Shown here piece by piece: positions 22,996-40,905 of a stretch of DNA of 40,905 bases. Position 1 is the first letter of the stretch; each line of letters begins with the position of its first letter. Source of the stretch: an uncultured Bacilli bacterium (GTDB lineage: Bacteria > Bacillota_I > Bacilli_A > RFN20 > CAG-449); the NCBI GenBank assembly GCA_944332525.1, contig CALVKD010000051.1:1-40905 (forward strand), written 5' to 3'. The position numbers and the translations under genes are program-made. A model generated the notes under the pieces. That model was not told where the DNA came from. It ran no database searches and was given only the letters and a program-made list of their open reading frames with translations.

Positions 22996-23003
22996 GGGTG
23001 TTT

Positions 23004-24377
23004 ATGCTTATTAATGAAATAGTTAAATCTTGGTCATGCCATGATGGTATAAAAGCAACTAACGAAATTATAGATATTATAAAGAAAAAAAATGAACTTT
23101 TTAACGTTAATATTAATATGTCAAAGTTATCTTTGCTAAGAAATTGGAAAATTAACAAAAACGGAGTGATTGAAAATAGCAATGGCAGTTTTTTTAAGAT
23201 TACAGGAATAGAAAAAATTGAAAATGATAAAACAATTGCATCACAACCAATTATTATCCAAGATGAAATTGGTTTTTTAGGGATTATTTGCACATTTATA
23301 AATGGTATTTTACACTTCTTAATGCAAGCAAAAATAGAACCAGGAAATATTAATAAAATTCAAATATCCCCAACTATTCAAGCGACTAAAAGCAATTTTG
23401 AACAGAAACATGGTGGAAAAAAGCCGGCATATTTGGATTATTTTATTCACGATTCTAAATATGAAATTATTGTCGATCAAATACAATCTGAACAAGCTGG
23501 AAGGTTTTTAAAAAAAAGAAATAGAAATATAATAATTTTTGTGCCTTATGGTGATATAGAGATTTTACCATCACATATATGGATGACGCTTGGTCAAATA
23601 AAGCAACTTATGCGATATGATAATTTAGTAAATATGGATACTCGCACAGTTTTATCATGTATTCCATTTGGATTTTATAGTGATTCAAAAAAATGTTTGC
23701 AAAAATATTTTTCCAATCAGTTTTTATATAATTCACTTTTTAATGATGATGTACCTGACATTGTTAAAGCGTATAAAAAAATAAATGATTTTAAAATGTT
23801 CCATCATTCTTATTCTGAGTGTAAATCGTTGTATGATTTAAAAAATTGGAAATTAACTGATAAAGAAATTATTTGTAGAGATAAAGCTAATTTTAAAGTT
23901 ATTTTTTGTGATATTGAGATAGAAGGACGCGAAGTAAAATCTTGGTCACAACCTCTATTTGAAGCTATCGGTAATGCTCTATTTGTATTATTTGTTGCAA
24001 AATTTGATAATAAATATAAATTCTTAGTCAAATTAAGCCATGAAATAGGAACTTTTGATGATGTTGAATTAGGTCCAACTATCCAAAACGAATTCATTGA
24101 TAATGACAAGATGCCAAGTAATCAAATTGAAGAAATATATATTGAGCACATAAAAAATAGAGATAGGGTACTATATGATGTATTTTTATCTGAGGAAGGT
24201 GGAAGATTTTATCAAGAACAAAATAGAAACGTTATAATTGAAATTGATTGTCATGAATTGAATGATTTAGATTCAAACTATATTTGGCTTGATTTTAAAA
24301 CATTAAATATTCTTGAACAAAGTAATAATGTTCTAAATATTCAATTACGGAATTTATTATCTTTATGGGAGGTTTAA
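23004..24377 (+). CDS. NDP-hexose 2,3-dehydratase (EvaA/TylX3/OleV family)
   Basis: Removes the C2 hydroxyl of dTDP-4-keto-6-deoxyglucose to give the 3,4-diketo-2,6-dideoxy intermediate. 457 residues, the usual length, made of two homologous halves. Half 1 shows SSFFKITGIE-like start, QPIIIQDEIGFLG, then AKIEPGNINKIQISPTIQA and YLDYFI. Half 2 shows VKSWSQPLFEAIGNALF, LVKLSHEIGTFDDVELGPTI and a matching tail (EEGGRFYQEQNRNVIIE). ATG 23004 has AGGGGTG 5 bases upstream, 8 bp after rmlA. The family is best known from antibiotic deoxysugar clusters. Recognition is by motif pattern, not by search. Confidence 0.85.
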   Translation: MLINEIVKSWSCHDGIKATNEIIDIIKKKNELFNVNINMSKLSLLRNWKINKNGVIENSNGSFFKITGIEKIENDKTIASQPIIIQDEIGFLGIICTFINGILHFLMQAKIEPGNINKIQISPTIQATKSNFEQKHGGKKPAYLDYFIHDSKYEIIVDQIQSEQAGRFLKKRNRNIIIFVPYGDIEILPSHIWMTLGQIKQLMRYDNLVNMDTRTVLSCIPFGFYSDSKKCLQKYFSNQFLYNSLFNDDVPDIVKAYKKINDFKMFHHSYSECKSLYDLKNWKLTDKEIICRDKANFKVIFCDIEIEGREVKSWSQPLFEAIGNALFVLFVAKFDNKYKFLVKLSHEIGTFDDVELGPTIQNEFIDNDKMPSNQIEEIYIEHIKNRDRVLYDVFLSEEGGRFYQEQNRNVIIEIDCHELNDLDSNYIWLDFKTLNILEQSNNVLNIQLRNLLSLWEV

Positions 24378-38913: not shown

Positions 38914-39605
38914 ATAGTAAATGAAACCTCCTTTTTGTTGTAAATATTGTTTTTTTGGTCTACAAATGAATTTAGATATAGTCACAGCTAATTTTCAGCG
39001 TAATAATAAATTTATTTATAATTTTTTTGTTAAGTTTTGAGCATTGTATTGGCTCAAAACGTAAATATATTTATTTTTTTCATTTTGCTCCTTTATAACA
39101 TTAATTAGAAATTATTTTATTATAATTATAGTATATTTGAAATTGGAAAAAATAGTGAAATTATGTTTTTCTCGTTAAATTGTTTTATATATTTAATTGT
39201 TAATCGTATAGTTTTAGCCGAAAAAGCATCATAATTATATATAAGTATCACATTTATTTTTATTAAATGCATAAATATTTGATTTTTTTGTTTGGATTTC
39301 CTTTTCACATTACCTATCAATTGTAAGGCAAGATTATTGAGTTGTCTTACATTAATTTTTTTCAATTTTGTGGAAAATTTTTATTTAAATATAAATTTTA
39401 ATCATAGCAAAGAATTAATTTCTGTTATCTATTATTATACGCGATTCAAAAAAATAATTTTAATTTTTGTATGATAATAAAAACTACCTAAATCCATAGA
39501 AGACCGATAGGCATATTAATTTCATTAGATTGTGTAGCCATTGTTAAAAAGAACTATGTTATAATTGCAAAAAAAGTGATTTCAGAAAATTAAGTTAGTA
39601 TAGTA
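38914..39605. other. AT-rich intergenic region before the RT remnant
   Basis: No convincing gene over about 690 bp. It contains a perfect 9-bp hairpin GTTTTGAGC/GCTCAAAAC (39034-39042 with 39052-39060, loop of 9). An extended -10 TGTTATAAT (39557-39565) lies just before the RT reading frame. A 79-codon minus-strand reading at 39126-39365 starts at TTG, has no ribosome site and is not recognised. A retron msr/msd RNA could be expected here but no convincing one was found. Confidence 0.45.
39034..39060. repeat. Isolated perfect inverted repeat
   Basis: GTTTTGAGC-N9-GCTCAAAAC. No T run follows on either strand, so it is not a standard terminator. It lies upstream of the leftward acetyltransferase gene and could be an operator or a mobile-element end mark. 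Confidence 0.6.
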
Positions 39606-40581
39606 TTGCATTTAAAATATCTACATATGTCTATGTTGAATGGGTATTACAATAGGAAAGAAAAAACATCGTATATTTTTATTTGTTCTTTTTCTTATTT
39701 TGAAAAGCACAAAAAGATTCAATACCCTGAAGGGATTTCAAGATATGAGATTAGAAAAAGTAGATATCTTTGCTTTGAAAAACAAAAGCCATTAAAAGAA
39801 AAGCCAAGTGATTACTCAAAAAGAAAATATCGAACTATATTAACAATAAATAATAGTAATACATATTCTTGGATAAAAAAAATCGCAAAAATTATTAAAC
39901 TCATTTCTATCTAAATTATTATCAGATAGTGATATACCATATCTTCAATCGACAAGAAAGACTATTTCTAATATTACAAATGTTTCTAAACACCTAAGTG
40001 CAAGTCCATCGACTTTTTTTACTATTGATTTAAAAAATTTCTTCACACAAATTTCAGAGACTGATGTTACAAATTTATTTATTCATAAATTTAGATTTCA
40101 AAGACATATTGCTGAATTATACGTTAAACTAACAACTTCACCATCAGAAAATAACTCGGGGTTTGAATTAGGACAAGGACTACCAACTAGTCCATCACTA
40201 GCTTTTCTTATATATAGTGATTTCTTTGAGTTTTTATATAATTATTGCCTAGAAAGAAATATTACTATGACAGTCTATGTCGACGATATAACTTTTAGTA
40301 CAGCAACAGAGAATATTGATCAAAATTTTATTAATGAAATTATTGGCTTATTCAAGCGTAATGGATTAATAATTAATGAGAAAAAGATCCATTATATTAG
40401 AAAAGGTAATAAAGCTGAGATTACAGGAATCTTTGCTATCAAAGAAAAAATGATTGTAAAAAATAATGTTCATGAAAAAATAAAAACACTATATAACGTT
40501 CTCAAACTCTATAAAAAAGAAAAAGACATAACTATAGATAAATATTTATTTTTATTTATGTGGACCGAAGGGACAACATAA
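39606..40581 (+). pseudogene. Retron-like reverse transcriptase, frameshifted and truncated by IS200-type insertion
   Basis: RT of about 325 codons in two frames. Part 1 (TTG 39606, or ATG 39627, to TAA 39914) carries KRKYRTI, the RT1 R-x-I motif. Part 2, one frame further, is open from 39877 to TAA 40581. It carries ITNVSKHL (a NAxxH-like motif), FFTIDLKNFF (RT2/3), GQGLPTSPSLAFLI, VYVDDITFS (catalytic YVDD), GLIINEKK and AEITGIF (a VTG-like motif). The NAxxH and VTG pair is the hallmark of retron RTs. The join needs a one-base shift near 39880-39912, where an A8 run occurs. The normal end after the LFLFMW segment is missing; the IS begins there. A type assignment other than retron is possible. 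Confidence 0.75.
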
Positions 40582-40584
40582 AAC

Positions 40585-40601
40585 CGCCTCCTATGGGGGC
40601 G
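40585..40601 (+). repeat. IS200-type left-end hairpin
   Basis: Seven base pairs (one G-T) CGCC-T-CC with GG-G-GGCG and a TAT loop. It is strikingly GC-rich against the AT-rich surroundings. Subterminal hairpins like this are bound by TnpA in the IS200/IS605 family. Confidence 0.75.
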
Positions 40602-40621
40602 AGAATTTCAAAGCAGTAGCG

Positions 40622-40652
40622 TTGAGTAAACAAAAACTTCCTCTGGTATAAT
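40622..40652 (+). promoter_or_regulatory. tnpA promoter with extended -10
   Basis: TTGAGT (40622-40627), 19-bp spacer, and TATAAT (40647-40652) with the extended -10 TG at 40644-40645. The predicted start is near 40659. Confidence 0.7.
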
Positions 40653-40694
40653 AAGTAGTGTTCAATTGCCTTTATACTCAAGGAGGAAGTTTTT
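40632..40694 (+). promoter_or_regulatory. 12-bp inverted repeat masking the tnpA ribosome site in read-through RNA
   Basis: AAAAACTTCCTC (40632-40643) is the exact complement of GAGGAAGTTTTT (40683-40694), which overlaps AGGAGG (40681-40686) and ends one base before the ATG at 40695. The left arm is upstream of the -10, so RNA from the element's own promoter lacks it, while RNA entering from outside would fold and hide the ribosome site. Confidence 0.75.
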
Positions 40695-40905
40695 ATGTCA
40701 AAAATTAAAAATGATGACACTAGTAGTTTATCACACACTAAATGGAATTGTCAGTATCACATTGTTTTTACACCAAAATATAGAAGAAAAGCAATTTATG
40801 CAAAATTAAGGACAGATATTGGAAAATATTTGAGACGATTGTGTGAATACAAAGGAGTAGAAATTGTAGAAGCACATGCAATGGCCGATCATATTCACAT
40901 GCTCG
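40695..40905 (+). CDS. tnpA: IS200-type TnpA transposase (Y1 HUH), 5' part
   Basis: The first 70 codons of a Y1 transposase, normally about 130-155 residues, which cuts and joins single-stranded DNA ends. It reads SLSHTKWNCQYHIVFTPKYR, then RKAIYAKLR, IGKYLRRLCEYKGVEIVEAH and MADHIHML. HIH is the HUH metal-binding motif; the catalytic tyrosine would lie beyond the window edge. AGGAGG is 8 bases before the ATG. Cut by the right edge, so intactness is unknown. Confidence 0.95.
   Translation, partial: MSKIKNDDTSSLSHTKWNCQYHIVFTPKYRRKAIYAKLRTDIGKYLRRLCEYKGVEIVEAHAMADHIHML

Follow-up and report, generated by a model that had tools for sequence, protein, structure and literature searches.

The window, a stretch of 40,905 nucleotides, is an entire contig (C51) of a 1.7 Mb genome assembled into 98 contigs. 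At its right end, 3' of a polysaccharide locus encoding a sugar transferase, a Wzy-like ligase, an NDP-hexose dehydratase, a flippase, a pyruvyl transferase, and a glycosyltransferase, lies a single reverse transcriptase (RT) gene that is split over two reading frames. The NDP-hexose 2,3-dehydratase of the polysaccharide locus (22998-24377, matched at 4.5e-118) is an enzyme better known from antibiotic deoxysugar pathways.

Frame 0 is open from 39606 to 39914, with a TTG start at 39606 and a first ATG at 39627, and frame 1 is open from 39877 to 40581, its final ~8 codons lying within an insertion sequence (IS). The RT gene itself occupies 39606-39882 in frame 0 (ORF1) and 39877-40557 in frame 1 (ORF2), both on the + strand. 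Homology switches from frame 0 to frame 1 at an A8 run (39875-39882, + strand). Read across this run, the protein has W-I-K-K-S-Q-K-x-L where the intact RT of the nearest relative (L044) has W-L-A-K-T-Q-K-x-L; because the shared motif, W-[IL]-x-K-[ST]-Q-K-x-L, spans the A8 run, the one-base shift was placed there. ORF2 encodes the palm and fingers, the catalytic motifs, and the start of the thumb, with NVSKH (39979-39993), GQGLPTSPSLAF, YVDD (40276-40287), and ITG (40420-40428) all in frame 1 and intact. Frame 1 alone scored 176 bits (9.3e-55) against a profile of relatives from which it was left out, and its codon usage was gene-like, the other two frames of the same region scoring negative.

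ORF1 resembles an RT only over its last ~25 residues, from KYRTI (39825-39839) to WIKK. The remainder had no significant similarity to the N-terminus of any relative and no coding signature; GC content by codon position across most of ORF1 was 0.22/0.31/0.21, compared with 0.34/0.28/0.18 for genes of the window, and the coding signal was 0.05 bits per codon, compared with 0.19 for ORF2 and ~0.29 for window genes. Hence, the N-terminal part of the RT appears to be either eroded or very divergent. A second frameshift within ORF1 was also considered, where frame 1 at 39640-39792 ('LKSTKRFNTLKGFQDMRLEKV') looked by eye like a retron N-terminus, and was rejected at a profile score of -2.4 bits and shuffle fractions of 0.04-0.85.

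Without a break, the RT frame continues into the left end of an IS200-like element (40556-40905, + strand, junction at 40556-40560) that itself runs off the contig end. Within the element, the first 70 codons of tnpA (40695-40905, + strand) encode a Y1 transposase of the IS200 type (Pfam Y1_Tnp, 5.2e-16) before the contig stops. The same left end, GTGGACCGAAGGG preceded by TTAT, closes four other contigs (C48, C88, C19, and C24), and the Y1 transposase together with the repeated left end place the element in IS200/IS605. On those four contigs (L002, L003, L004, and L005) the left end follows TTAT directly behind terminator-like sequences, and this repeat is a breaking point of the assembly. 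Against five left ends, the assembly contained a single right IS end (C40), which is not assignable to any one of the five; the sequence following it was not RT-like. Since the contig ends within the IS, the RT flank to the right of the element is absent from the sequence. The intact L044 RT runs on past the break point for ~35 conserved thumb residues and a tail, so that the missing thumb includes the relative's 'GILNYIHQVE' stretch, and the L044 thumb found no match in the window's own genome in a search run without a positive control. Bacteroidota relatives have short C-termini, for example in a protein of 260 aa (L092), and judging from these sequences thumb loss might therefore matter less than L044 suggests. 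The preliminary description had reported a one-base shift near the A8 run, intact YVDD, NVSKH, and ITG motifs, an IS200-type insertion, and the loss of 40 or so C-terminal residues, all beside a polysaccharide locus; each of these was recovered here, the conserved residues lost being ~35.

In relatives, the stretch upstream of the RT is the site of the ncRNA, a small peptide gene and, in type VI retrons proper, an HTH gene. In the window, this stretch (38986-39605, 620 bp, + strand) has a GC content of 0.20, its two halves folded at z scores of 0.55 and -0.20, and no 120-nt window on the + strand fell below a z of -2. Rfam gave no match at gathering score, only sub-threshold chance matches, and neither folding nor Rfam revealed an msr-msd RNA with a1/a2 upstream of the RT, in agreement with the earlier failure to find one. 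No HTH ORF was present in the 620 bp and no HTH_VI match occurred on C51; the only peptide gene candidates were short ORFs lacking a ribosome-binding site, and no partner effector gene was recognizable upstream of the RT. A non-ATG frame at 39492-39590 was rejected as a peptide gene for want of a start codon and of significant similarity. Between an acetyltransferase-like gene and the RT there is also a perfect 8-bp hairpin (TTTTGAGC/GCTCAAAA, 39034-39060). Because identity to the closest intact relative is only 36%, the absence of an L044-type ncRNA and peptide could partly reflect divergence. The decay thus exceeds that first described, taking in the front of ORF1 and the empty upstream stretch besides the shift and the IS.

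The read-through protein matched RVT_1 (4e-19) and, among PADLOC profiles, RT_VI (2.3e-45, 153 bits) ahead of the next type (2.6e-26) by about 19 orders of magnitude, with II-A profiles reaching 6.9e-26 at best. Its best NCBIfam model was the retron St85 family (NF038233; 1.2e-24), at 87 bits against a cut-off of 235, and its PDB matches were nearly all retron RTs, headed by Ec86 (1.9e-11). In a tree of 42 RTs, including group II rows and leaving out Abi RTs, the window RT fell within the retrons and the group II RTs outside. There it paired with the RT of Inordinaticella fortuita (L044; support 93/92), and the pair was sister to a 17-row clade (99/90) holding the HTH-type VI retrons, the fork joining the two being weaker (83/83). 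As profiles, PDB matches, and tree agree, the sequence is clearly that of a retron RT, and the same data support placing it in the type VI lineage and, together with I. fortuita, on a side branch lacking the HTH gene. The "retron-like" label of the preliminary description is thereby borne out, the grouping with group II or Abi/UG RTs that would have spoken against it did not occur in this tree without Abi RTs, and the RT can be typed more closely. Across the phylum, RT_VI matches at E <= 1e-25 were found in 17 of 392 genomes, including the window's own, and searches of viral contigs with the RT alone (window RT or L044 RT) returned no relatives.

The RT locus of I. fortuita 4B (L044, identical to L091) provided an intact relative whose upstream region could be read. 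It encodes a 377-aa RT with a full thumb and an unbroken frame, and holds within 400 bp ahead of the RT, in this order, an ncRNA, a hairpin, and a gene for a 35-aa hydrophobic membrane peptide with a ribosome-binding site, without an HTH gene. The RNA is msr-msd-like, folding at a z of -5.82 inside an a1/a2 pair (GTGACTTT/AAAGTCAC), and at 4440-4800 of L091 there is a probable complete retron ncRNA, followed by the membrane peptide and the HTH-less RT. The window RT resembles that of I. fortuita in being nearest to it, in its MT[VL]YVDDITFS core, and in the absence of an HTH gene; it differs in having neither the intact RT with its thumb nor the folded ncRNA nor the peptide.

Type VI retrons are reportedly defined in the Mestre 2020 classification. 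In PADLOC, a type VI retron consists of HTH_VI and RT_VI, with examples in Klebsiella phage ST147-VIM1phi7.1 and Shewanella phage MuM16-1. The window shares with these the RT_VI profile as best match and a neighboring position in the tree. Unlike type VI retrons proper, in which the HTH gene overlaps the RT start and small auxiliary proteins occur (PMC8541194), it has neither, no HTH_VI gene adjoins the RT, and the RT branches outside their HTH clade. Retron Ec86, the nearest solved RT, is alike in sequence but has another effector and belongs to another retron type. Other retron loci in the class (L047, L048, and L049) have a partner gene of ~330 aa, overlapping the RT start or directly adjoining it, that by eye resembles a nucleoside deoxyribosyltransferase-type effector.

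That the RT is instead a group II intron, DGR, or Abi/DRT-type enzyme is highly improbable and already largely refuted: weak scores from a group II intron model (2.7e-07, 30 bits) and Drt3a (24 bits), these and other DRT models lying far below cut-off, stand against 153 and 87 bits from retron models, against NVSKH and ITG at the positions of retron NAxxH and VTG, and against a tree that, with Abi RTs left out, keeps the RT inside the retrons and apart from the group II rows.

The gene could also be intact in the cell, if the A8 shift were an error of the consensus and RT and IS had been wrongly joined at a contig-end repeat. Both lesions do lie at spots where short reads fail, one in a homopolymer and the other at a contig end in a multi-copy element. 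However, the 34 other ORFs of the window contain, without a break, 15 eight-base and 2 nine-base A/T runs, the RT frame passes straight into the IS end, and neither artefact accounts for an eroded ORF1 and a structureless upstream stretch, making this account unlikely. Less likely again is that transcriptional slippage or programmed frameshifting rescues the shift and a shortened RT is made. Polymerase slippage is known from runs about as long as eight adenines, ORF2 is gene-like with its motifs intact, and short C-termini occur in some relatives. Yet A/T runs of 8-9 are common within intact genes of the window, the RT of the intact relative needs no shift, and a missing thumb and an absent ncRNA are beyond rescue by slippage; the earlier view that a programmed frameshift is possible but no cure for the truncation therefore still holds.

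Most likely, then, the RT gene is the remnant of a dead retron. We put at roughly 80% the probability that the stretch holds the degraded RT gene of a type VI-lineage retron from the HTH-less side branch that includes I. fortuita. The gene is split by one base at the A8 run, its 3' part is interrupted by the IS left end at ~40556, and no ncRNA, HTH gene, or peptide gene is recognizable upstream; it is the combination of shift, IS, eroded or divergent front, and empty upstream stretch, set against the intact Inordinaticella locus, that argues for a dead remnant. The retron presumably no longer works in this genome, and we infer, as the preliminary description did, that it belonged to phage defence and is being lost. 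The damage may be recent, since the catalytic motifs are intact and the codon usage of ORF2 is gene-like.

In retrons generally, the RT makes msDNA from the ncRNA, and the resulting complex keeps an effector in check as long as no phage perturbs the complex (PMC12948488). By analogy, the window retron in its intact form would have functioned as other retrons do: part of a structured RNA just upstream would be reverse-transcribed by the RT into msDNA, and the complex of RT and msDNA would hold back a toxic partner until phage disturbance released it. For the HTH-less branch, this partner would be the tiny membrane peptide whose gene the intact relative has between its RNA and its RT.

Relatives of the RT remnant revealed a peptide gene, absent from the PADLOC models, whose ribosome site is covered. 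Genes for cationic/hydrophobic peptides of 35-66 aa lie upstream of the RT at L057, L063, L067, L081, L083, L086, L089, L094, L130, L132, L035, L091, and L036, their ribosome-binding sites mostly placed in a hairpin that directly follows the ncRNA. Of 20 type VI-like loci for which a peptide start was chosen, 19 have a ribosome-site match ahead of the peptide (35-71 aa, usually basic in its N-half and hydrophobic in its C-half), and the site mostly belongs to the 3' arm of a hairpin. Leaders of 84 nt folded at z scores from -0.4 to -6.3, mostly below -2, compared with a scatter around 0 for control leaders of HTH genes from ten of the same loci; ribosome-site pairing alone did not separate the two sets, and some control starts are approximate. 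The peptide starts were picked by eye and there is some redundancy among the loci, so the pattern counts as a lead rather than a test. No Pfam or PADLOC model was found among the peptides tried, and one phage version corresponds to PHROG 15287 (function unknown). The existence of such a peptide is not new, as small auxiliary proteins are mentioned in type VI retrons (PMC8541194). The covered ribosome site would be a possible addition, no description of a hairpin over it having been found in a limited literature search. The proposed type VI gene order would run from ncRNA through a hairpin over the ribosome-binding site, a cationic/hydrophobic peptide, and, where present, an HTH gene to the RT, and from this order peptide translation would be the controlled step. 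Tentatively, the window RT and Inordinaticella, perhaps with G406, L036 as well, may form an HTH-less type VI branch with a tiny membrane peptide as effector and, more broadly, type VI retrons may be peptide toxin systems in which translation of the peptide is controlled.

Taken alone, the remnant adds a further case of decay in a defence gene next to a variable polysaccharide locus. It shows a type VI-like retron RT in a lineage of small genomes, where the sampled genomes of the same genus and family have none. Gene decay of this kind is ordinary, and the value of the remnant lies in its relatives, which draw attention to a branch of one retron type that has been little described.
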